The notes under the pieces were generated by a model. It worked only from the letters and a program-made list of their open reading frames with translations. It searched no databases and was not told the origin of the DNA. Both the position numbers and the translations under genes were made by a program. A stretch of 40,279 nt of DNA from a virus, in the IMG/VR virus record IMGVR_UViG_3300046323_000134, positions 1-40,279 of that record, one strand, 5' to 3'. Shown one piece after another: positions 3,159 to 29,275 of this stretch; position 1 is the stretch's first letter, and each line of letters begins with the position of its first letter.

Positions 3159-6100
3159 ATGGCCATCATTGATCCGTTTGAGGCGCAACAACCGCAACGG
3201 AGGGGTATCGTTGACCCCTTTGAGGCGCAATCCGCGCCGCAGATCGTTGACCCCTTTGCCCAAACTACGCCCCCGAAAGAGACCACAGCAAACCCCTTCA
3301 CTGGGGCGCTTGGCCGTGTCGCATCCTTGGCTGGTGCGGGTGTTAGCGCAGTGGCAGAGGCTGCCGAGAGGCTCGGTGACAAGCTGGAATTGGCTGTACC
3401 CCTGTCAGGCATAAGCGAAGAAGACATTAAAAACAAAAAGCAGCTTCAGCCCTTGTTTGATTGGGCGAAGTCGTTGAAGGGTTTTGATGAGAGCCTCGGT
3501 TACCAGCCAAGCACGCAGCTCAAAGAGCTGGGCACCAATCCGCTTAAAGCAATTCCGTTTATTGCCGAGCGGGTAATCACGTCTTCCCCCGACATGGTCG
3601 CCGCAGCAGGCGTGTTCCCTGCTTATGTGGCGGCGCGCACAAAAGAAATCTTGGACGAGCGGGTCAAGAACGACAACAAAACACTCGACGAAGCTACCGT
3701 AGGGGATGTAACCGCCGCCGCTTCTGCGGCTGTCATTGAATCCACGCTTGAACGCTTCGCCACCAAAGGCTTGCTCAAACCAACTGCGGGCGGCTCAACT
3801 GCGGGGCGGATTGCAAAAGAGACAGGTATTCAGGCGGGCACTGAGGTTGCTGAAGAAGAAGCAGCGTACCTTGGCGAAGCTGCGGGCACACAAAAAGGTC
3901 TGAGCGCAGAAGAAGCTTTGACTCGCGGTGCTGAAGCCGCAATTGTTGGTGGTGGACTCGGTGCTACGGTGCAGGGCGCAAAAGAACTGCTTGCTCCTAA
4001 AACTGCGCCTACCCAAGAACCTACAACACCCGGACAAGCGCCGTTAGAAGTTGAGAAGATTGCTGCCGACCTGACCAAGCAAGGCATCACTGACATCGAA
4101 CCTGAGCGCGTTGCGCAATTCCAGCAAACTTTCCTAGACATGGGGCTCGACCCCGCGCAGGCAAACATCCGAGCGATTGAAGCCGCGACTTTGGAAGCTG
4201 AAGAGAAAGCCCCTGCAAGTGAGGAAGCTCAAGGAGAACCAGATGCTGGACAGACTATCACCGAGCCAAGTGGAGCAGGCGTTCCAGTGGCTGAACAGCC
4301 CAGTGCAGACATCGCCCCCGGAGGAGTTGGAGTCCCTGAGCCAAGTGGAGTGGTTCCTGCTGGACAGGATGTTGCAGGGGTTGCTACAGGAGAAGCAACA
4401 CAGCCCGTTGCAATAGTTGACCCGTTTGAACAAGGAGACCAAGTTGGCATTGAAACCCCTGAAACCATCCAAGCAGAAACGCAAGGACAAGAAACAGCCC
4501 CCGTTGAGCCCGTTGCCGAACTAGCCGAGCAACCAGAAGAAACTCCAGCCCCGGTCATTGAACCAACCGTTGCCGAGCCGGTAGAAACCGCTGCCGAATT
4601 AGCCGAGCAGTCAGACGAAGTAATTGCTGAAGAAGCTGCGATCCCAGACGACGTTGCTGAGGCCGTTGGCGATTTGGCTACTCTGCCTACTGAAGAAGTG
4701 GCGGAAGAAGTGTCGGTCAAGACTAAGCGTGGCCGTAAACCCCTGAGCCCAGAAGCAAAAGCCGCCAGCGATGCACGTCGGGCACAACAAACTGCAAACT
4801 GGAAAGAAAACGAGAAGGCTGTTAACACTGCTGAGGAGGCGCTCAATGAAGCGCTCACTCCCATTGATGAAGACAAGATTACTTCCGATGAAAATTTAGC
4901 CGCCGCTGAAAGAGACAAGCGCATCGGCAAAATCCAAGCGATCAAGTCTTTGATGTTGCTAGCGCGTTCCCTCAAGGGTACTAAGCCGGGTGACCGAGCA
5001 GAAGCACTGCTGAAGAACCCCGCCATTACTCGCATGGAGTTGGAGAATGTGAGAAAGGGTATTGCTGCCCAAGTATCCAAGGCTGTGACCGAGGTCAAAG
5101 CGGGCCGTGCTGACTCCAGATTCAGCAAGATGACCACTGGCCAGCAAGCACTGCGGCACGTCATCAAGACTGGTAATGCGTTCCAAAGATTCTTGGCCGC
5201 TCGCCTGTTGCCGTTTGTAAAAGACGTCAAGTTCATGGTCATCGAGGAAGACGCGCAGTTGCCACCTCAGATCATTGAAGGAAAAGTAGAGGCCGACTGG
5301 AACGAATCCCGTGGCATGTTCTTGCGGGTTGTGTCTACTGGCGAACGCTTTGTCTTTGTTCGCGGCGTAACTGGAGGCCCTAACCAAGGCGTGAACAATG
5401 TCACCGTGCTGCACGAGATGCTGCACGCCGCGCTGAATGAAAAAATAACTGCGGCATACGGGGCGTACAACGCAGGTAAAGAACTCAACGCTAATTTGGT
5501 AAAAGCGTTTGATGCCTTGCAAGGCACTATGGACATGACTTTGAAGCGTGTGAAAGAAATGCACGCCGCAGGCACGTTGCCAGAATTTATGGGGGAACTG
5601 GTGGTCTCCGACATCTTTGGTGACCCCCGCGAGTTTGTTGCTTATGCAATGTCCCACCCACGTTTCCAGAAGTTCTTGATGGAGACCGAGGGCGTTACCA
5701 AGCAGTCGCTGTTCACTCGGTTCGTCAACAACGTGCGTCAGTTCTTCAACATGGGGCCAATGCACACCAGCGCCCTTGCAGATGTAATCGCCGTTACCAA
5801 TTCAATGCTCAGTTCCCGTCTGACCGCCGATATGCGGGCGGAGATTGCTGCGGAACGAGCCAGTGCAGATGCCACGGAAGTTTCTTCTGAACTTAAAAAG
5901 AAGAAGATCAAGACCAACAAGATGGTTGAGCGCATGGAGAAATCCAGCTTTGCCGACACCATCCGTGAGTTGCCCGGCCTTGTGAATATCCGCAGTATGG
6001 AGGACTTGACCGATGCGTTGTCTTCTATGTACGCTGGCTTTGATAACTTCAAGATGCGTCAGGTACTGCCTACATTGCAAACAGAAGCCGTGGTTCAATG

Positions 6101-8915
6101 GTCTGAGCGCAGTGGTGTTGTCGGCATCAGAGAAGCTTGGCAGTATCTCACTGACATGGCCGCAATGCGCAACAAACTCACGCTGGACATGGTGCCCGTC
6201 TCTGAAGCTCTGGCTAAGTTAGCACGCAGTGCGCCTGACCAAATGCGGCGCTTGGCCAATGTGATGCACTACTCTACGTTGCTGTACCGTGACCCGACTG
6301 TGGCTGGCAACCTGAGCAAAGACGCGGACCTGAAGAAGATGTGGGATGGTCTGACCGACGCAAACAAGAAGCTGTACGAGCAGGTGCGCGACTTCTACAA
6401 AGCCAACCATGAGCAGTACCATGTGTTGCTAGAAGAGCAAATCGCAAACTCAAAGCTGGCTGGCACTGCTAAAGATGGCAAGTCCCCCAAAGGCAAGCTG
6501 ATTGCACAGATCAAACAAATCTACGAAGACGGCAAGAAGCTGTATCCGTACTTCCCGTTGATGCGTTACGGCCAATACTGGCTGCGAATTGGCAAGGGCG
6601 TGAACCGCGAGTTCTACATGTTTGAGAACGCCTTTGATCGCAACATGTTCTTGCGTAAGCGCATCCGTCAAATACAAGAGGCTGGCACTACTGAATCCTT
6701 GCGCGAGATGCAGGAATCTGGAGTGATTGACATGGGCAATGACTTGTCCGACGCACGCAAGCGGGACTTGGACGCCAGCGGCATGTTGAAGGAAATCTTC
6801 AACTCAATCGACAACGGTGTAAAAGCGGGCAAAGAGATCGTTGATGATTTCGGTAACGCAGTCTCCACCATGTCCAGCATTGATGCCGAGAAGCTCAAAG
6901 ACGAAATCTACCAGATGTACTTGCAGACTTTGCCTGACCGCAACTTCCGCAGACAGTACATGCACCGCCAAGGCACTACTGGTTTCAGTGGCGACATTGC
7001 TCGTAACTTCGCAGTGACCGGCACAAACATGGCCAACCAACTGGCCCGCATCAAGTACGGCCCCCGCATCATGGGCGAGCTTGAACGCGCAACCGACACG
7101 CTTGCAGGTAACCCAGACAAAGCCCGCCTCGGCGAGTTTGTTACCGAGATGCGTATGCGTGCCGAGCAGCAAGTGCGCCCCGACCCAGAAGACAGCCTCG
7201 GCTACAAAACTTCTGCGCTGTTGAATTCTTCGGCCTACTTGTGGTTGATGACCTCGGTCAAAACTGCCGCTACTCAGTTGACGGCGCTTCCAATCTTTGT
7301 TGGCCCAGTGCTTACATCCAACCACGGGTTCAATCCTGTCAAGGTAGGCGCGGCCCTTGCCAAGTCAATGGCTATCTTTGGTACAAGCGGTATTCGCCGC
7401 CAAGCTGAAGACGGCTCGTCCACGTTTGAGTTCCCCTCATACCTGAACAACGGTTTGGTGAAGTTGACCGAGAACCAAAAGCTGGCTGCGCAATACATGG
7501 CAGACAGAGGCATCAGCGACAACACACTGGCCTACGACCTTGGCAACCGTAGAGATACGCCGACAAACCAACTTGAGGGCGGGGTACGCCGCACTATGCG
7601 CACCGTCAGCAATGTGATGACCAGCTTGTTCCACCACACTGAGCGCATGATTCGTGAAGTGACTTTCATGACCTCCTACGATCTGTACTCCCAGCAGACC
7701 AACAAGGAAACCGGCAAAAAGTACACCCACGAAGAAGCCCTGCGTGCAGCCGAAGCCGAGACTCACGAAGCCTTGGGCAACTACCACGCATCCAACCGCC
7801 CTCGCGGTTTGTTGGCCGACTCTGAACGCCAAGTCTTAATTAACGCGCAAAAGCCCGTGGGCCGCACAATTCTTCAGTTCAAGATGTTCCCCGCGTTTGT
7901 GACTACGTTCTTTGTCCGTAACGCTTACCGCGCGCTGGCTGGGATCGACGCAAAAGATCGCGCCAAGGCCATGACTCAGTTGGTCGGCACATTGACCATG
8001 TCCACTGCGCTTGCTGGCTACGTTGGTATCCCCGGTGCAACAATGGCTATGGGCGCAATCCAAGGCATGATGAACGCAATCCGCGACGAGGACGATGAAG
8101 ACCCGTTGGAAGAGCGCGACTTGGAGTTCTGGTTCCGCAACAAGTGGCTCCCCCAGACTTTTGGCAACATCAAGATCGGCGACCACACACTCGACGAAAT
8201 TCTGGACAAAGGCTTGATTGCCTCCATGACGGGCTACGACATCTCCGGTAGCTTGTCCATGAACAACATGTGGGTGCCCGACGTAAAAGAGCAGGCGACT
8301 TCTGCTGCGGCTATGCAGGAATACCTTATGTCCTTACTCGGCCCCAGTGCGTCAATCACGTTCAAACAAATCCCCAACGCTATCGACTTCTTCAACAAAG
8401 GCGAAATTGCACGGGGTATCGAGCAGTTGGCCCCAGCTTTTGCTCGTGGCTCACTCACCGCTTATCGGTACGGCAAAGAAGGCGCAACCACCACTTCGGG
8501 TGCGGTTATCAAGGAAGCCGAGGAGTTCACTCAAGGGCAGTTGCTGGCTCAGTCTATGGGCTTTGCCACCGAAGGGCTCGTGGCCCGGCGGGAAGCAATC
8601 TTCCACTTGCAAGGTGAGATTCTGAAGGTGAAGCGGGAACGCACCAAGCTGCTCGATCGTTTGGAGCGGGAGCTGGATAAAGGCTCAGATGAGGACGTTG
8701 AGAAAGCTTTTAACAACGTGTTCACGTTCAACAGCCGGAACCCCTATGACGCAATCGGTGGGGACAACATCAAGCAATCCATCAAGAAGCAGATTGAGCG
8801 CAAGATGAAGTCTGACCGTGGTATGCCCATCGACAAGAAATACTACCCGCAACTGCTTGACTTGTTGGAACCATCAGAGAAGAAGCTGGAGCGTGAGCGG
8901 CTGATGGCCCAATAA
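3159..8915 (+). CDS. Giant internal virion/ejection-type protein with HEMLH metalloprotease motif
   Basis: 1918 aa, with a start preceded by AAAGGGGTTCGGC. The N-terminus carries short repeats (IDPFEAQ, IVDPFEAQ, IVDPFAQ, and a later IVDPFEQ near residue 420). Hydrophobic helices and an acidic, Pro/Glu-rich linker (about 290-520) follow. Residues 752-756 read HEMLH, the HExxH zinc-protease signature, within VTVLHEMLHAALNE. The rest is largely helical. The C-terminal third has Gly/Ala/Met-rich, membrane-like segments near 1605-1650 and the element NIKIGDHTLDEILDKGL, reminiscent of the large polyvalent protein domains of phage and plasmid giants. By family logic it is carried in the virion and injected with DNA, like T7 gp16, acting on cell wall or host proteins. 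The protease motif is seen directly; the ejection role is inferred from size and position as the last late gene before the terminator. Confidence 0.7.
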   Translation: MAIIDPFEAQQPQRRGIVDPFEAQSAPQIVDPFAQTTPPKETTANPFTGALGRVASLAGAGVSAVAEAAERLGDKLELAVPLSGISEEDIKNKKQLQPLFDWAKSLKGFDESLGYQPSTQLKELGTNPLKAIPFIAERVITSSPDMVAAAGVFPAYVAARTKEILDERVKNDNKTLDEATVGDVTAAASAAVIESTLERFATKGLLKPTAGGSTAGRIAKETGIQAGTEVAEEEAAYLGEAAGTQKGLSAEEALTRGAEAAIVGGGLGATVQGAKELLAPKTAPTQEPTTPGQAPLEVEKIAADLTKQGITDIEPERVAQFQQTFLDMGLDPAQANIRAIEAATLEAEEKAPASEEAQGEPDAGQTITEPSGAGVPVAEQPSADIAPGGVGVPEPSGVVPAGQDVAGVATGEATQPVAIVDPFEQGDQVGIETPETIQAETQGQETAPVEPVAELAEQPEETPAPVIEPTVAEPVETAAELAEQSDEVIAEEAAIPDDVAEAVGDLATLPTEEVAEEVSVKTKRGRKPLSPEAKAASDARRAQQTANWKENEKAVNTAEEALNEALTPIDEDKITSDENLAAAERDKRIGKIQAIKSLMLLARSLKGTKPGDRAEALLKNPAITRMELENVRKGIAAQVSKAVTEVKAGRADSRFSKMTTGQQALRHVIKTGNAFQRFLAARLLPFVKDVKFMVIEEDAQLPPQIIEGKVEADWNESRGMFLRVVSTGERFVFVRGVTGGPNQGVNNVTVLHEMLHAALNEKITAAYGAYNAGKELNANLVKAFDALQGTMDMTLKRVKEMHAAGTLPEFMGELVVSDIFGDPREFVAYAMSHPRFQKFLMETEGVTKQSLFTRFVNNVRQFFNMGPMHTSALADVIAVTNSMLSSRLTADMRAEIAAERASADATEVSSELKKKKIKTNKMVERMEKSSFADTIRELPGLVNIRSMEDLTDALSSMYAGFDNFKMRQVLPTLQTEAVVQWSERSGVVGIREAWQYLTDMAAMRNKLTLDMVPVSEALAKLARSAPDQMRRLANVMHYSTLLYRDPTVAGNLSKDADLKKMWDGLTDANKKLYEQVRDFYKANHEQYHVLLEEQIANSKLAGTAKDGKSPKGKLIAQIKQIYEDGKKLYPYFPLMRYGQYWLRIGKGVNREFYMFENAFDRNMFLRKRIRQIQEAGTTESLREMQESGVIDMGNDLSDARKRDLDASGMLKEIFNSIDNGVKAGKEIVDDFGNAVSTMSSIDAEKLKDEIYQMYLQTLPDRNFRRQYMHRQGTTGFSGDIARNFAVTGTNMANQLARIKYGPRIMGELERATDTLAGNPDKARLGEFVTEMRMRAEQQVRPDPEDSLGYKTSALLNSSAYLWLMTSVKTAATQLTALPIFVGPVLTSNHGFNPVKVGAALAKSMAIFGTSGIRRQAEDGSSTFEFPSYLNNGLVKLTENQKLAAQYMADRGISDNTLAYDLGNRRDTPTNQLEGGVRRTMRTVSNVMTSLFHHTERMIREVTFMTSYDLYSQQTNKETGKKYTHEEALRAAEAETHEALGNYHASNRPRGLLADSERQVLINAQKPVGRTILQFKMFPAFVTTFFVRNAYRALAGIDAKDRAKAMTQLVGTLTMSTALAGYVGIPGATMAMGAIQGMMNAIRDEDDEDPLEERDLEFWFRNKWLPQTFGNIKIGDHTLDEILDKGLIASMTGYDISGSLSMNNMWVPDVKEQATSAAAMQEYLMSLLGPSASITFKQIPNAIDFFNKGEIARGIEQLAPAFARGSLTAYRYGKEGATTTSGAVIKEAEEFTQGQLLAQSMGFATEGLVARREAIFHLQGEILKVKRERTKLLDRLERELDKGSDEDVEKAFNNVFTFNSRNPYDAIGGDNIKQSIKKQIERKMKSDRGMPIDKKYYPQLLDLLEPSEKKLERERLMAQ

Positions 8916-16211: not shown

Positions 16212-16486
16212 GTGAGTCCTTTGACGGTTAGGATTGTTGTGATGCACTGAGCAAGCGTTTGGTCTTCGGGGACGATAAACAACTCAGCCGTCCAGTCAGG
16301 GCCGTGGGGATTGCGCTTGTACGTGGACATTTCCAAGATACGTCCATTTGATGCGGCAATCACACCAAGTCGAAACGCAGGTTGGGAAGGATTGTGGGAA
16401 TCTTCAATCGAAATAGGCCCCGTTGTAATTTCTTCTCTGTCTGCCGCCATCACCCATTGCAAAAATTTTTTAAGCATTCTTCTCAT
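16208..16486 (-). CDS. Hypothetical protein between polymerase and nuclease
   Basis: 92 aa from the ATG at 16486, which overlaps the polymerase stop codon as TAATG. It starts MRRMLKKFLQWVMAADREEITTGPIS; later strands FRLGVIAASNGRILEMSTYKRN and WTAELFIVPEDQ suggest a small beta domain. The end is ATGA-coupled to the nuclease. No family recognised. Confidence 0.65.
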   Translation of the reverse strand: MRRMLKKFLQWVMAADREEITTGPISIEDSHNPSQPAFRLGVIAASNGRILEMSTYKRNPHGPDWTAELFIVPEDQTLAQCITTILTVKGLT

Positions 16487-19149
16487 TAACAGTCTCCATA
16501 AGATTTGCCATACCCTGCTTCGCAGTTCAGCGGTAGCTCGGGTGCCCACGACGGGCGGATACGCATACACAATTCAACGTACTCCTTAGCTGTTTCAGCC
16601 TCGGCCTCGGGTGCTATCACCCCCACACTATCATGCACAGTCATCACCACACGGTACTTCTTGGCGATCATCAGCATCTGCTCGCCTATCACGATACGTG
16701 CAAGGGCTTGGCATACGTTCTCAATCACCTTGCCGCCATAGATTCGGTTGGGGATGATGGCTTTGCCTTTCTTGGTGTCGTACACAAGCTCGACCTTGCC
16801 GCTTTCCTCGTCCACCTTTTGGCGCAGGTTGGGGTACTTCAAGCGCAGTCCGTTGGGTAGCAGGATGCCGTCCTTGCCATCTACCTTGAGGATGTCGTCC
16901 CGCCCAAACGCCGTCGTTTGCTCGCTGATAATTGCGGGGAGGACGTTCGCCGCAGCTTTCCATAGTGCAGTAATTTTCGGGTAAGTACTTCGATACGTAT
17001 CAATGATTCGCTTCGCTTCTTCAAGCGACACTTCAACACCAAAATTCTTAAGTTGCGCCATAAACTTTGCCGCGCCCATGCCGTAGCCGCAGTTATGAAC
17101 AATCATCGGCCCTTGTGCTGTTAACACCATGTAACGATTCCTCGGCCCTGCGTAAGCGAGATCGTAAGTCTGTAATTTGCGCCTCAAGGTTGGCGACTCG
17201 ACGTTTGTTTTTAAGGTTGTCACTTCGAGAAACGAATCGGATGTTGTCTGGCTCGTAGTTGCCGTTAACGTCAATACTGTCCATTTCAAAACTCGGGACA
17301 TCCCAGCCTTCAAGCGTTTGCACATATCGAAGAAACGAAGCTCGATCTTCTCTCCATTTGGGCCACACCGATATGCCACGCCCCCCATAGTGAGAATATG
17401 CTTTGTTGGTTGCGGTGTGACACCTTGTGATGGCAGCAGCCAGTCGATTGAGTAGTCTGGTTCTGTGCCCGTCGTCGGCCATTGCGTGCGAATACACCCA
17501 GTACCGTTTTTGGTTTGAAGCAGCTTTGGCACAAAGCGGACAGCGCGTGCTTTTGAAATACTTGAAATTATGCACGTCCACGCTGTACTCATCGGGTCGG
17601 CACTCACACCTGACGACAAGCGAAGCAACGCCTCCCCTCTGTCCGCAAAGGTAGCCTGTAACGGTAAGTTTTCCACTGCGGTGTCCAATACTTGGGAGAG
17701 GGTACTTGCGTCTTGCACCAGAGATTGCGCTTCCAACCACTGTGTCCCTGACCACACTTTGTGGTCTGGTGTTAACCACATCCCGCAAAGATTCAATGTT
17801 TCCTTGATGCCGCTGTTCTGTAATCCTTGATGGCATACCCATTCCTCCCCGTCCCACAACTTGTCGTCCAAGGAAACCTGCTCGATAGGCTTCCACCCTG
17901 AGTCGGATAATACCAGCGTTCCCTCGGAAATACAACCTAAGATTGTCGTCTTACCGACAAACCTCTCGTCTTTGGTAATCGCTTCAACAGCCTTGCCATA
18001 GATAGCCGATGCCATGATCTTGTATACATCCTCACCCCTATCAAATGCTTCCACCAAGTCGTCCTGTCCAGCCAGCCATGCCAGCGTCCGCGCTTCAATC
18101 TGCGATGAGTCTGAGTCAATCATCACGTCACCATAGGGCGCAAGGATTGCCATCTTCAAAGGCGATGTGCGTTGCAAGTTCTGTAAGTTGATCTTGTCGT
18201 CACCACCCCAGCGTCCAGTGTGGGCGGCGTAATAGCGTAGGGGAACTGGCATTGGCCCTCGGGAGGCAATCCCAATGAACCGCTCGGTGCGGGTCTCTTC
18301 AATCGTGGACTTCGTTCCCAGCCGCGCCGCGACCACTGCTTGCACTGCTGTATTTTCATGTTCGAGCAGGGCCTTGAACTCCTCATCCGTCTTAGAGAAC
18401 GCAAAGGTCTGTTTGCCAGTGGTTGGGCTCTTTTTCATTGGGGGCTGTACACCAAGCGATACCAGCAGGTCAGCAAACTGTGGGTTGCTCATCAAGGTGT
18501 CTTTGTCAAAAGTTTTCAACAACTGGGCTTTACGTTCTTTCTCCGCCTCCAAATGCACTTCCAGCAATTCTGTATCCAACTGCAACACTGGCTCGGTGAA
18601 CATGCGCACAGTCAGGTCAATCAGCCGTAGCTCAATCTTCGGGAACCCTTGGCTCATGTGTCCGAACAAATCCCACGTCAGCTTCACATCGTTCTTACAG
18701 TACTCGCCGTACCGTGCCAAGTCTTCCTTGTTGAAGTCCTTGCGGAACTTATTGATGGCGTTGAGCACCTCAGTGCCCTTCTCCCCAATGCCGTAGTGTT
18801 GGGCCAGAACCGCGAGGCTCCCGCCTACGTTCGTACCATGAAGCGCCCGACCCATACTCAGCGTGTCCAGCCAACCCTTGGGGGTCATGCCAAACTTCCA
18901 ATTCAGGATGGCTCCGTCGAACGGCGCGTTGTGCGCAAGCGCAAGGGAGTTTTTCCAGTCGTACTTGTTCAGGAAGTCCCACATCTTTTGATGTGTACCG
19001 CTGAACCACACCGGCTCGCCATCGTTTACCTGTACCGCAACACCAATAACCTCAAAGCGTGGGTCACGGATGTACTCCTCCGTGGTCTGCTTGGCAAACC
19101 CAAGGTCACCGCCATAGGCTGTCTCAAAGTCAATCGTGATGATGTTCAT
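16486..19149 (-). CDS. Family A DNA polymerase with 3'-5' exonuclease domain, interrupted by an intein
   Basis: 887 aa precursor. Residues 1-175 are a DnaQ-like proofreading exonuclease (IDFETA with D7/E9, AHNAPFDGAILNW, YCKNDVKLTWDLF). The polymerase part has RYYAAHTGRWGGDDKINLQNLQR, motif A DSDSSQIEARTLAW near 345, motif B split by the intein (RFVGKTTILG / CGYGMG), and motif C MTVHDSVG near 840. Without the 281-residue intein the mature enzyme is about 606 aa, normal for a phage T7-type polymerase. It starts in an ATGA overlap with the upstream paralogue gene. It would replicate the phage genome together with the primase-helicase. The intein must splice out to restore the O-helix, so activity depends on protein splicing. 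Confidence 0.93.
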   Translation of the reverse strand: MNIITIDFETAYGGDLGFAKQTTEEYIRDPRFEVIGVAVQVNDGEPVWFSGTHQKMWDFLNKYDWKNSLALAHNAPFDGAILNWKFGMTPKGWLDTLSMGRALHGTNVGGSLAVLAQHYGIGEKGTEVLNAINKFRKDFNKEDLARYGEYCKNDVKLTWDLFGHMSQGFPKIELRLIDLTVRMFTEPVLQLDTELLEVHLEAEKERKAQLLKTFDKDTLMSNPQFADLLVSLGVQPPMKKSPTTGKQTFAFSKTDEEFKALLEHENTAVQAVVAARLGTKSTIEETRTERFIGIASRGPMPVPLRYYAAHTGRWGGDDKINLQNLQRTSPLKMAILAPYGDVMIDSDSSQIEARTLAWLAGQDDLVEAFDRGEDVYKIMASAIYGKAVEAITKDERFVGKTTILGCISEGTLVLSDSGWKPIEQVSLDDKLWDGEEWVCHQGLQNSGIKETLNLCGMWLTPDHKVWSGTQWLEAQSLVQDASTLSQVLDTAVENLPLQATFADRGEALLRLSSGVSADPMSTAWTCIISSISKARAVRFVPKLLQTKNGTGCIRTQWPTTGTEPDYSIDWLLPSQGVTPQPTKHILTMGGVAYRCGPNGEKIELRFFDMCKRLKAGMSRVLKWTVLTLTATTSQTTSDSFLEVTTLKTNVESPTLRRKLQTYDLAYAGPRNRYMVLTAQGPMIVHNCGYGMGAAKFMAQLKNFGVEVSLEEAKRIIDTYRSTYPKITALWKAAANVLPAIISEQTTAFGRDDILKVDGKDGILLPNGLRLKYPNLRQKVDEESGKVELVYDTKKGKAIIPNRIYGGKVIENVCQALARIVIGEQMLMIAKKYRVVMTVHDSVGVIAPEAEAETAKEYVELCMRIRPSWAPELPLNCEAGYGKSYGDC
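17092..17934 (-). mobile_element. Intein in polymerase motif B (polymerase residues 406-686)
   Basis: The precursor runs ...KTTILG then CISEGTLVLSDSGWKPIEQV, a typical Hint block A with Cys1. Block B follows (ETLNLCGMWLTPDHKVW, with T-x-x-H as TPDH). The end is block F (TYDLAYAGPRNRYMVL) and block G (GPMIVHN followed by Cys687), the classic His-Asn-Cys junction. The 281 residues lack an in-frame LAGLIDADG or HNH domain. The 190 residues between blocks B and F are Ser/Thr/Leu-rich and odd in composition. They are encoded by DNA that in another frame specifies an HNH endonuclease. Insertion in the most conserved polymerase motif is typical of inteins, since loss must be precise. Confidence 0.93.
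17093..17836 (-). CDS. HNH homing endonuclease nested out of frame inside the intein
   Basis: 247 aa from the ATG at 17836, chosen because GGGAGG lies 7 bases upstream. The frame is one base out of phase with the polymerase codons and stays open from 17935 (TTG) to a TAA that overlaps the intein's last Asn codon, so it matches the intein almost exactly. Residues include a Cys pair module (CECRPDEYSVDVHNFKYFKSTRCPLC) and the HNH-type core AYSHYGGRGISVWPKW...FLRYVQTLEGWDVPSFEMDSIDVNGNYEPDNIRFVSRSDNLKNKR. This matches, in order and spacing, the free-standing endonuclease at 27589-28197 (NYGGRGISVCDRW...[28 protein letters not shown]). A C-terminal coiled coil (LEAQITDLRSRLRRAEES) follows. Family similarity strongly argues the frame is real. 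It would cut intein-free polymerase alleles and drive intein spread. Confidence 0.85.
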   Translation of the reverse strand: MPSRITEQRHQGNIESLRDVVNTRPQSVVRDTVVGSAISGARRKYPLPSIGHRSGKLTVTGYLCGQRGGVASLVVRCECRPDEYSVDVHNFKYFKSTRCPLCAKAASNQKRYWVYSHAMADDGHRTRLLNRLAAAITRCHTATNKAYSHYGGRGISVWPKWREDRASFLRYVQTLEGWDVPSFEMDSIDVNGNYEPDNIRFVSRSDNLKNKRRVANLEAQITDLRSRLRRAEESLHGVNSTRADDCS

Positions 19150-25646: not shown

Positions 25647-26861
25647 TCACTCCTTGATGTGAATGGTCTTGCCGTTGTCGGCCTCGCCATCGAAGTAGTC
25701 ACCGACAATGCACCACAGCGTAGGTGCAGTCCACTCGCTACCCCAGTCACCGCCCACCATGCCATCGGTCAAGATGATGACGCACTCGGGTGCAATGTTC
25801 TTCTCCTTGAGATACTCAGAGATACAGCTTGGGCTTGTGCCACCGCCGCCTACTGGTCGAGTTGAGCTAACAATGTTAGATGCCTCTCCATCGCCATAGG
25901 TTTCATGCGCCACCACACTGCTACCCCAGTACAACAAGTCCACACAGGCAGGGTTGACCTCCTCCGCGATACCTTTGACCTCGGATAGAAACTCAGCCAA
26001 CTCATCGTTGCCTACACTGCCGGACGTATCCACAGCCACGACCAAGTGCCCGACCTTTTCACCGATCAGCGACGGCATGTACGTGCCTGTCGATAAGAAC
26101 CGACGGTTAACCTTGCGCCATGACGATGCGTCCTTGGCATTGCATGTGGCTTTCACGAAGTCACGCAACACCTCACGCCAATTAACTTTTGGCTCAAGCA
26201 ATTCGGCAAGCTCGCGGTCTGCGCCATCTGCACCAGTTCCCGCGACTTTGTTACGCGCCATGATGCCTTGACGGATGGCTTGGTCAATCTCCCGCGCCAA
26301 CTCCTTCTTCTCCTCCTCGGGCATATCCTTGGCACTGTCCCAGTCGTGGTCGTCAAACCCACCATCGCCTTCACCATCGCCATTGCCACCACCGCCTTCC
26401 TCCTTCTCCTGCTTGAGAATGTCGAAGACCTGCTTGGCATTCATGCCACGGAACCGCTCATCAACCAAGCCCATGCCTTTACCCTTCATCTCGCCATCGG
26501 TGTAGCGGGGCATTGCAATGACTTGCTCGTTGGGGTCTAAGTCTTTAAGGCTCAGGTTAATAACGTAGTCACAAGCGGCGTTAGCCAAGCTCGCATCCTC
26601 GTCATGCAACTTTCTCCATGTGGTCAAGTGTCGATACATCTTGTGGTAGTTCTCATGCGCCACCACGAAGTTCAACTCTTGGTCGCGCAACTTCTTCACG
26701 AACCCACGTCCGTAGATTTCATCGCGCCCATTGGTACACGCAGTCGGAATACCATCCATGACCTTGGTCTTGCCCACCATCAATATGCCCGACAGCAATG
26801 CGAACTTGGGGTTACGCATCAACGTGATCTTGGCCTTCTGTACTTTACGTTCTTCAACCAT
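25647..26861 (-). CDS. Metallopeptidase-like plus VWA domain protein
   Basis: 404 aa. Residues about 55-85 carry HENYHK (HExxH) inside LNFVVAHENYHKMYRHL, the signature of the DUF2201 N-terminal metallopeptidase-like domain. An acidic Gly-rich linker (GGGGNGDGEGDGG) follows. The C-terminal VWA domain has the MIDAS motif DTSGS within HLVVAVDTSGSVGNDELAEFLSEV, the Thr loop GGGTSPS and the ILTDGMVGG strand. These proteins pair with MoxR-type AAA+ ATPases such as the one at 28211-29275, probably to remodel or load metal into a target protein. Start: GGAGCTAACA before ATG. One palindrome copy (25868-25878) lies in the gene. Confidence 0.8.
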   Translation of the reverse strand: MVEERKVQKAKITLMRNPKFALLSGILMVGKTKVMDGIPTACTNGRDEIYGRGFVKKLRDQELNFVVAHENYHKMYRHLTTWRKLHDEDASLANAACDYVINLSLKDLDPNEQVIAMPRYTDGEMKGKGMGLVDERFRGMNAKQVFDILKQEKEEGGGGNGDGEGDGGFDDHDWDSAKDMPEEEKKELAREIDQAIRQGIMARNKVAGTGADGADRELAELLEPKVNWREVLRDFVKATCNAKDASSWRKVNRRFLSTGTYMPSLIGEKVGHLVVAVDTSGSVGNDELAEFLSEVKGIAEEVNPACVDLLYWGSSVVAHETYGDGEASNIVSSTRPVGGGGTSPSCISEYLKEKNIAPECVIILTDGMVGGDWGSEWTAPTLWCIVGDYFDGEADNGKTIHIKE

Positions 26862-27358: not shown

Positions 27359-27592
27359 TTAGTACTCCGGTGGTATCAATAACTTCACTGTGCGTTGCAA
27401 CTCCTCCTCGGAATCGAACTCATGCACTCGCTCGAACTTAACTCCTGCCTCTCCGAGTCTCCGATACAACACATAGTGCGGCACACCTTTGTCGATGTAC
27501 CCGCCTACGCTGTACCCAAGCGCATGGAGTCTGCGGTTGGTGTCACTTTGCACAACCCAACCGTTATCCAATTCGATGTCTCTGTCTTTCAC
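27359..27592 (-). CDS. Hypothetical protein, GTG start coupled to the endonuclease
   Basis: 77 aa from a GTG at 27592 that overlaps the endonuclease TGA as GTGA; no better start exists because further upstream the frame runs into endonuclease coding sequence. The body (WVVQSDTNRRLHALGYSVGGYIDKGVPHYVLYRRLGEAGVKFERVHEFDSEEELQRTVKLL) is alpha/beta like the two downstream genes. The lack of its own Shine-Dalgarno site suggests the endonuclease insertion replaced its original start. Confidence 0.6.
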   Translation of the reverse strand: MKDRDIELDNGWVVQSDTNRRLHALGYSVGGYIDKGVPHYVLYRRLGEAGVKFERVHEFDSEEELQRTVKLLIPPEY

Positions 27593-28197
27593 AGCAACGG
27601 CTTGTTGTGTTGGATTCGATACGCCACCCCTTCGGGGGTGATACCGATATCTCGTGCCCATGCCGCCAATGTTTTAGTCTGCCCATTGTGTGTAATCCTC
27701 ACGTTGTTTCTCCTGTTGTTGGCCTGTTCTTGCCGTGTAGCCCATCTAACATTTGTTGGTTCGTAGTTTCCATCGTTGTCAATCCGATCAAGGGTGTGTT
27801 CGGGTGTGGGTCTCTCCCCCACGTCCTCGACGAACGCCTCAAAACTTTTATTCCAGCGGTCACATACAGAGATGCCTCTACCACCGTAGTTTTGAAACGC
27901 ATGATGGCTTGGATGCTGACAACGCAACTTCATACTGAGCCAACGAAAGTACTCTGGTGTGTTGTGCCGCCCGTGTTTACGTGCAGTGTTCCCAAGGTTC
28001 TTCGCCGCCAGCTCCCTCTGAAAGCATCCACAACTCGTGGACTCACCCATGCGCAGGGCGCTACCCGCCACAACACTCGTGCTACCGCAGTCGCACAGGC
28101 AAACCCACGCAGGCTTACCGTACTTCCCTTTCGGGTCTCTATATTGCACAAGCCACCTGCCAAAACGCTGGTTGGTTAAGTCCACGAATCTTCCCAT
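27589..28197 (-). CDS. Free-standing HNH homing endonuclease
   Basis: 202 aa from the ATG at 28197 (AAGGATTACAA upstream). The N-terminus MGRFVDLTNQRFGRWLVQYRDP and a Cys module (CLCDCGSTSVVAGSALRMGESTSCGC) precede the HNH-like core NYGGRGISVCDRWNKSFEAFVEDVGERPTPEHTLDRIDNDGNYEPTNVRWATRQEQANNRR. The C-terminus (HNGQTKTLAAWARDIGITPEGVAYRIQHNKPLL) is a helix-turn-helix-like DNA-binding module of the NUMOD/IENR type. It is a mobile selfish gene wedged between the AAA+ gene and a small gene, and a relative of the endonuclease nested in the polymerase intein. Confidence 0.85.
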   Translation of the reverse strand: MGRFVDLTNQRFGRWLVQYRDPKGKYGKPAWVCLCDCGSTSVVAGSALRMGESTSCGCFQRELAAKNLGNTARKHGRHNTPEYFRWLSMKLRCQHPSHHAFQNYGGRGISVCDRWNKSFEAFVEDVGERPTPEHTLDRIDNDGNYEPTNVRWATRQEQANNRRNNVRITHNGQTKTLAAWARDIGITPEGVAYRIQHNKPLL

Positions 28198-28210
28198 TTG
28201 TAATCCTTTC

Positions 28211-29275
28211 TTACAACAAATCTTGGTTTTTTGCAACCCAATCGGCGAACGCCTTGCAACTGAACGCGATGGACTGCTTGCTCGGTGTTTTCGCTATGTT
28301 AATGGCAAATACAGCTTGCCACTCGGCATCGAACCGCTCAAGGTATTCCATGAAAGGCGTAATGCTCGCCTTGTCCATACGTGCAATCGCGCCAAACACC
28401 ACAATGGCACACGCGCCGGGGCTTGTTGGTACTTTCGTAGTCTTAGGGCTTGCAATGGTCGCTTCCCATGTTGGCAACTGATCTGAGAACTCGATGTACG
28501 CTTGCATGTCACGCGCACCTGATTCACCGATAGCGCCAGTCAACGCCGCAATCACTGAGTCGGTGTCGTTCTCCTTGCGAGTCCTAACAATGTTAGAGGC
28601 GGTCTCAAGCGAACGTGGAGATACGAACGCAGTCTGTGGCTTCTTGGGGTTGTAGATGTATGGGTTGTCGTTCTGGCCACCATCGGTGTAGCTTGCCAAC
28701 ACATGAGGGAAACGATTCACCCACGCAATCACCTCGGGCTCGATGCCTTTGTTCATGGCCCACTCAATCCATTGCTCAGCGTCTGGCTTGCTGATGGTTA
28801 CGGATACCAAGCGATTCAGAGAGTGCGCTTTCAACGAGTCACCAACACCGTCGGTCGTCAAGTTACCGGTCAAGAACACGATGTTCTGCTTGTGCAGTGC
28901 AATGTCACCGAGTCGGGGGTTGGCCTTCTCGAACATGGGGTGAAGCATGTTCTTCACTGGGTCTGCGCCCTTGGTGTACTCGTCGAGCATGATGACGATG
29001 GGCTTGTTCTCATGCAACTTGAACCGAGCGTTCGGGTAATACCGTGTGGTCTTGGTATCGTGGTCAATCACAGGCATTGCAATGTCGCCCAAGTCGAGAT
29101 TGGGTACGTCAATATACGCATGGTCATAGCCCAACTCGCCAGCGATGTTCTCCAGCAGGGATGACTTACCGATGCCGGGCTCGCCGCGCAACAAGAACCG
29201 AGTCTCGGGGTTGCTACGGATAAGCGAAGCGGCTTGCTTCAATGTGATGGTCTTACCGAATTTAACTTCTGACAT
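28211..29275 (-). CDS. MoxR/CobS-like AAA+ ATPase
   Basis: 354 aa from the ATG at 29275, chosen because CAGGAG lies upstream while the earlier in-frame ATG at 29302 lacks a ribosome-binding site. Walker A is RGEPGIGKSS; the downstream DVPNLDLGDIAMPVID loop is typical of MoxR proteins. Walker B is IVIMLDEYTKG, sensor 1 is IVFLTGNLTTDG and the arginine finger region is AHSLNRLVSV. It should form a ring that works with the VWA protein at 25647-26861. A palindrome copy lies within (28585-28595) and another in its leader (29297-29307). Confidence 0.85.
   Translation of the reverse strand: MSEVKFGKTITLKQAASLIRSNPETRFLLRGEPGIGKSSLLENIAGELGYDHAYIDVPNLDLGDIAMPVIDHDTKTTRYYPNARFKLHENKPIVIMLDEYTKGADPVKNMLHPMFEKANPRLGDIALHKQNIVFLTGNLTTDGVGDSLKAHSLNRLVSVTISKPDAEQWIEWAMNKGIEPEVIAWVNRFPHVLASYTDGGQNDNPYIYNPKKPQTAFVSPRSLETASNIVRTRKENDTDSVIAALTGAIGESGARDMQAYIEFSDQLPTWEATIASPKTTKVPTSPGACAIVVFGAIARMDKASITPFMEYLERFDAEWQAVFAINIAKTPSKQSIAFSCKAFADWVAKNQDLL

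Follow-up and report, generated by a model that had tools for sequence, protein, structure and literature searches.

A candidate HNH endonuclease gene in the -1 frame of a mini-intein in a phage family A DNA polymerase

Canonical full-length inteins contain an in-frame LAGLIDADG or HNH endonuclease. A polymerase gene on an IMG/VR virus record (IMGVR_UViG_3300046323_000134; the whole stretch that was analysed, 40,279 nucleotides, is referred to as the window) raised the question of whether an intein can instead harbour its endonuclease as a separate gene in another reading frame, and how two proteins would then share one stretch of DNA. Our analysis indicates that the locus is very probably a mini-intein in a phage family A DNA polymerase whose loop also encodes, in the -1 frame, an independent HNH endonuclease, the two products having putative roles in splicing and homing. 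The original prediction had described a second frame of this kind, and the open reading frames, coordinates and reading frames of the polymerase, the intein and the second frame were recovered as it gave them. The second frame is real, but its offset, described as one base, is that of the -1 frame (offset 2). The features are listed below.

16486..19149, minus strand: family A phage DNA polymerase gene (Pfam DNA_pol_A, E = 4e-28; phrog_17, E = 7e-86)
17092..17934, minus strand: intein, 281 codons in the splicing frame, with C1, T55/H58 of block B, H280-N281 and Cys+1 (invariant residues in 36 relatives; Foldseek)
17650..17934, minus strand: N-terminal splicing half, blocks A and B, codons 1-95 (pLDDT ~93; splicing-frame dN/dS ~0.10-0.12)
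17194..17649, minus strand: linker, codons 96-247, an unfolded passenger in the splicing frame and the HNH core in the other (pLDDT ~30; dN/dS)
17092..17193, minus strand: C-terminal splicing half, blocks F and G, codons 248-281 (pLDDT ~92; splicing-frame dN/dS 0.13)
17844..17850, minus strand: Shine-Dalgarno sequence GGGGAGG of the hidden gene, within Gly-Glu-Glu codons, 7 nt before the ATG (conservation in relatives)
17093..17836, minus strand: hidden HNH gene, 247 aa, frame -1 of the polymerase, ATG at 17836 and TAA at 17095-17093 (phrog_374, E = 2e-28; conserved ATG; AlphaFold mean pLDDT 81.6)
17531..17608, minus strand: zinc-ribbon-like CxC...CxxC motif of the HNH protein, C77, C79, C99 and C102 (all four Cys invariant in 32 sequences)
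17207..17389, minus strand: HNH-type core YGGRGI...MD.ID.NGNYEP.N.RF...N..N, with R187S at 17276 in the window (invariant alignment columns)
27589..28236, minus strand: free-standing HNH gene of the same broad family but a different clade (blastp 36% over 89 aa, E = 2e-16; tree)

Two proteins encoded by one intein

The insert interrupts motif B of the polymerase at the junction KTTILG^CGYGMG and has TPDH in block B, HN in block G and Cys at the +1 position. C1, T55, H58, H280 and N281 were invariant over 36 relatives, with Cys at +1 in all flanks listed. Structure predictions covered the window and the IMG/VR loci. AlphaFold modelled the splicing-frame intein with a pLDDT of about 92 at residues 1-95 and 248-281 and about 30 at residues 96-247, and Foldseek matched this model to the RecA, DnaX and DnaB mini-inteins (probability up to 1.0, E ~0.01); a PDB sequence search with the same frame returned nothing useful. 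The signature residues and the predicted HINT fold argue that the insert is an intein. No endonuclease domain was matched in its splicing frame by Pfam or NCBIfam. From intein residue 20 onward this frame did match phrog_93, which PHROGs names 'endonuclease'; we read this as a match to other splicing-frame intein sequences.

The second frame of the intein DNA is open over 279 codons, a length reached in none of 20,000 codon permutations and none of 20,000 synonymous redraws. Its match to the PHROGs HNH endonuclease family phrog_374 and its own start at ATG 17836 bear out the predicted endonuclease gene, although Pfam and NCBIfam models gave no significant match to this hidden HNH type. The sequence match and the invariant signature columns point to membership of a phrog_374-type HNH family. 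In the AlphaFold model the core exceeded a pLDDT of 90 and a long C-terminal helix was predicted; comparison with solved structures gave no PDB match by sequence or, with Foldseek, by fold. A single base at 17276 separates the window from the near-identical locus L011 and changes the nearly invariant R187 to Ser, which may weaken the window's own enzyme. In ten aligned members including the window, the near-identical L011 aside, the HNH frame ends at the TAA created where CAT and AAC, the codons of the intein's terminal His-Asn, meet; in all other aligned members the stop lies earlier, always within the intein.

The predicted kinship to the free-standing HNH gene at 27589 was also found. A recent copy of that gene as the source of the hidden one was rejected, because the two fall in different HNH clades on a tree from a short, non-bootstrapped search. 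The window contains a second free-standing HNH gene (25647-26861; phrog_1314, E = 1e-87), unrelated by family to the hidden one. A 1918-aa protein is encoded at 3159-8915, and its C-terminal half resembles DarB-like antirestriction proteins (phrog_10089).

Constraint and translation start of the two frames

Changes were counted by codon position in an alignment of 39 full-length inteins. The fastest position was the third base of the splicing frame in codons 1-65 and 258-281; over codons from about 75 to 250 it was the second base of the splicing frame, which is the third base of the HNH frame. Medians of dN/dS over 13 pairs of relatives, calculated by simple NG86 rather than an overlap model, followed the same division. 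In the splicing frame they were 0.10 (codons 1-32), 0.12 (codons 34-68), 1.30 (codons 76-245) and 0.13 (codons 258-280); in the HNH frame the linker median was 0.16, with values of about 1 or higher outside it. Stop codons were counted in 25 representatives less than 80% identical. Before the start codon the HNH frame contained 36 stops compared with 39 expected; in the 36 codons after it there were 0 compared with 31 expected, and in the linker 1 compared with 149 expected. In the reverse test, in which the HNH protein was kept and its codons redrawn, 104 splicing-frame stops were expected in the linker and 0 were observed. Both frames are thus open beyond chance when tested in either direction.

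The linker is constrained in the HNH frame and drifts in the splicing frame, and the splicing blocks show the opposite pattern. The dN/dS values, codon-position changes and stop counts show that most of the region encodes one constrained protein and one passenger that needs only to avoid stops. The original prediction had held that one DNA sequence constrains both products throughout, and this is not supported, since the splicing frame is a passenger over codons ~75-250 (dN/dS ~1.3, pLDDT ~30). Double constraint is mainly limited to some 35 codons at block B, apart from stop avoidance. The constrained part of the HNH frame is found largely between blocks B and F rather than over F and G; in block A this frame is a passenger, as it mostly is in blocks F and G. 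The proposed check for synonymous-site suppression did reveal a reduced rate of change at four-fold sites of the splicing frame over the block B overlap (0.23 compared with 0.35, P = 0.009). The proposed check for purifying selection in both frames found each constrained in its own segments; selection on both proteins together was seen in parts of the overlap and not along all of it. The two proteins therefore mostly alternate along the DNA rather than share all of it.

These counts also bear on the alternative of an RNA intron that encodes the HNH protein, as in SPO1-type phage polymerase introns, the open splicing frame being incidental. Phage polymerase introns commonly carry HNH enzymes (PMC3428280), but the polymerase frame was open in every relative, its linker lacked all of the stops expected in the reverse test, the intein residues were invariant and the ends fold as an intein in the models. 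We reject an RNA intron because the host frame is open everywhere, and set its probability close to nil.

The start of the hidden gene was conserved in relatives. The internal ATG is formed within Trp-Val-Cys codons, from the Val codon GTA and the following TG. Val was encoded by GTA in 38 of the 39 inteins with Trp-Val-Cys, compared with a background of 73/193 (P = 6e-13), and the HNH core is gone from the sole exception (L046). It is likewise gone from L025, where an altered Cys codon changes the ATG to ATA. The predicted ribosome-binding site upstream of ATG 17836 was confirmed as the GGGGAGG listed above, and a 5- or 6-nt Shine-Dalgarno core preceded the ATG in 33/40 inteins. The Glu30 codon that supplies it was GAG in 33/37 cases, compared with a background of 49/87 (P = 3e-4). 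Start codon and Shine-Dalgarno sequence are therefore conserved beyond codon usage. The Jerseyvirus, MR14, Vibrio and EBPR members described below keep the ATG but lack an evident Shine-Dalgarno sequence there, so their HNH start may differ.

A different route to the HNH protein would be programmed -1 ribosomal frameshifting from the polymerase frame, yielding a fusion of N-extein, intein-N and HNH and no separate protein. The HNH frame is the -1 frame that such frameshifting requires. However, none of the 40 inteins contained a slippery heptamer X-XXY-YYZ in the region, HNH-frame stops occurred at chance frequency before the ATG and were absent directly after it, the ATG and Shine-Dalgarno sequence were conserved, and the Streptococcus, APSE and helicase cases described below sit in the +1 frame. 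Frameshifting was rejected as the expression route on the absence of slippery heptamers, and we regard it as quite unlikely.

The two frames, the constraint on each, the conserved start and Shine-Dalgarno sequence, and the deleted derivatives and empty alleles described below were all established by computation; from them we infer that the intein splices and that the HNH protein is made and cuts DNA. In the model we propose, the polymerase frame would be translated straight through as a long precursor, from which the two folded intein halves would splice out the insert, the loop being a mere stop-free passenger in this frame. Ribosomes initiating internally at the ATG in the Trp-Val-Cys codons, directed by the Shine-Dalgarno sequence in the Glu-Glu codons, would produce a separate HNH protein. 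This protein would most likely cut intein-less polymerase genes at or near motif B, and repair would copy the intein in (homing).

Conservation, mobility and recurrence

The frame arrangement was kept in about 40 aligned relatives and in 46/46 further loci. Fifty-one loci with the splicing frame were taken from IMG/VR, and in every full-length member the HNH gene occupied the same -1 frame, with a premature stop in L029. The 46 further loci came from a profile search, and their third frame was rich in stops. Searches of phage records by tblastn with each frame identified relatives with the same polymerase location in Salmonella Jerseyviruses, MR14, Vibrio 97.13 and EBPR siphovirus 2; in the Jerseyviruses identity was about 47% over 201 aa for the HNH frame and about 30% over 281 aa for the splicing frame. 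The same arrangement was present in six bacterial genome contigs, which are probably prophages. In a non-exhaustive search of viral and genome contigs, the HNH was never seen in the splicing frame of a relative. The original prediction had named a broken second frame or a lost HNH signature in relatives as evidence against it, and the relatives retain both the open frame and the signature. In the record of vB_SenS-Ent1 (NC_019539) the polymerase intein is described only as 'encoding splicing domains' and the hidden HNH is absent from the annotation.

These comparisons make it very improbable that the HNH frame is a relic, that is, an endonuclease once fused in frame, whose frame was shifted by indels and whose translation has ceased. 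Such a history would start from the textbook in-frame arrangement, and deleted and broken copies do exist (L025, L029, L043-L047). A relic is contradicted by the HNH-frame dN/dS in the linker, by the single stop where 149 were expected among the divergent representatives, by the shared frame in all 46 further loci and by the failure of the non-exhaustive contig search to find the HNH in the splicing frame of any relative.

The distribution of the intein is sporadic and mobile. Intein-less polymerases were common, with extein identity of up to 90%, and the window polymerase fell in a well-supported clade together with 12 empty polymerases. The extein tree required between 4 (forced by well-supported branches) and 7 changes between empty and occupied states. 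Some inteins resembled one another much more closely than did their exteins; in the pair L030/L038 the inteins were 88% identical compared with 61% for the exteins, although pairs were chosen for high intein identity and dual constraint may slow change in intein DNA and inflate this contrast. Two insertion sites, four codons apart, were used; members of the same intein family (L014, L018, L023, L024 and others) occupy the second site, four codons upstream (KT^CILGLGYG). Mini-inteins of 405-546 nt had kept the splicing halves and lost the HNH core. Among 36 empty alleles (extein junctions L289-L368) the +1 position was Ala in 24 and Cys in 12, and those with Cys may mark sites that an intein has left, or may be more favourable targets. 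The distribution fits a cycle of invasion, decay and loss, in which homing would be the means of invasion.

The HNH protein might also be made and serve the phage in another way, in packaging, host takeover or competitor exclusion. HNH proteins do act in phage packaging (PMC12613952), and the cleavage site is so far only putative. We nevertheless consider such a use unlikely, since homing fits the location within a mobile intein, the sporadic presence among close relatives, the repeated HNH loss that leaves mini-inteins and the several independent HNH captures in inteins.

These captures extend beyond the -1 family. In the polymerases of APSE-2, Caulobacter GB2A and Streptococcus Javan255 the inteins harbour different HNH genes, which lie in the +1 frame. 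Searches recovered about 18 loci of the APSE/Caulobacter type, at a second polymerase site and in SNF2-type helicases, together with 11 loci of the Streptococcus type, and in these +1-frame cases the HNH third position likewise changed fastest. On an HNH tree from a short, non-bootstrapped search, the hidden groups formed separate clades; free-standing genes were the closest neighbours of the Streptococcus type and also fell among those of the APSE/helicase types. In one APSE-2 record, P46, an ORF inside polymerase gene P45, appears as a conserved hypothetical protein. Two polymerases (L190 and L133) have two inteins each, at motif B and before C-ENI(C/V)QA, and both appear to be of the hidden-HNH kind; the HNH frame was verified for one intein in each, and the assignment of the other follows from position and blocks. 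On two contigs (L020/L205 and L022/L216) the polymerase has a -1 hidden-HNH intein and an SNF2-type helicase close by has a +1 one. In L121 an ordinary in-frame LAGLIDADG domain sits beside a hidden-HNH intein.

The arrangement was also seen with another nuclease. The first intein of an SNF2-type helicase (L202, IMGVR_UViG_3300032605_000734; about bases 837-1706) matched Pfam Intein_splicing and concealed a DUF559 / PD-(D/E)XK-like nuclease in the +1 frame (Pfam E = 1e-6). By this match the DUF559 type is a candidate second nuclease family with an out-of-frame arrangement. The HNH captures comprise the -1 polymerases, the +1 Streptococcus phage polymerases, and the +1 second polymerase site with the SNF2 helicases. 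Inteins with out-of-frame endonucleases thus probably form a widespread and recurrent class in phage replication genes, in which splicing is by protein and the endonuclease is translated separately as in introns, with at least three independent captures of HNH and at least one of a DUF559-type nuclease. The out-of-frame arrangement turns out to be old.

Significance and relation to known systems

In these inteins the two jobs of splicing and spreading would be separated at the level of translation, so that the gain, retention and loss of endonucleases in inteins could be tested directly. A substitution that is synonymous in the splicing frame can abolish the endonuclease start without affecting the intein, and the deleted copies provide a natural example. 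Inteins listed as mini-inteins or as splicing domains only may hide nucleases, so surveys of the host frame alone would undercount them. The locus also offers a clear natural case of nested genes with one passenger frame, useful for calibrating overlapping-gene tests.

As in canonical full-length inteins, the splicing halves flank the endonuclease, which lies between blocks B and F; unlike in those inteins, it occupies another frame, has its own start and is outside the spliced-out protein. Some phage DNA polymerase genes contain group I introns that carry an HNH gene, for example I-PfoP3I, and these introns resemble the present elements in having the endonuclease as a separate ORF in a self-splicing element of the same host gene (PMC3428280). 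Here, in contrast, it is the protein that would be spliced, which requires an uninterrupted host frame across the endonuclease gene.

The nearest published parallels, the ShiLan domain and the Pacc40 insertion, are cases of an HNH gene placed out of frame within mycobacteriophage DNA methylases (Arsenault, Gosselin and Gogarten 2025, PMC11855218); such methylase insertions are also described in PMC12613952. The two systems share an insertion with an open host frame, an HNH gene in a second frame of it, and spread between phages. The authors found neither an intein or intron splicing domain nor a ribosome-binding site in ShiLan and Pacc40 (PMC11855218), unlike the present families, which have a clear mini-intein, a Shine-Dalgarno sequence and a conserved ATG and occur in polymerase and helicase genes. 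Asn is the final residue of the ShiLan insertion, whose sequence finishes in TAAC (PMC11855218), as does that of the polymerase intein; the insertion may therefore be a relic of a hidden-HNH intein.

The 'intein-containing DNA polymerase precursor' annotated in the Jerseyvirus vB_SenS-Ent1 belongs to the same intein family, and the neighbouring helicase intein in that phage is annotated with an in-frame LAGLIDADG enzyme. We found no published report of an out-of-frame endonuclease in an intein in the literature covered, outside which lay subscription journals and a preprint on Actinobacteriophage inteins. To judge from its title, which speaks of 'non-canonical architecture', and from its citation for overlapping frames in PMC11855218, that preprint (Gosselin, Arsenault and Gogarten, bioRxiv 2025.01.02.630785) may report similar inteins. 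Unlike the Actinobacteriophage inteins of the preprint, the families described here occur in phages of Salmonella, Pseudomonas, Vibrio, Caulobacter and Streptococcus and in uncultured phages.
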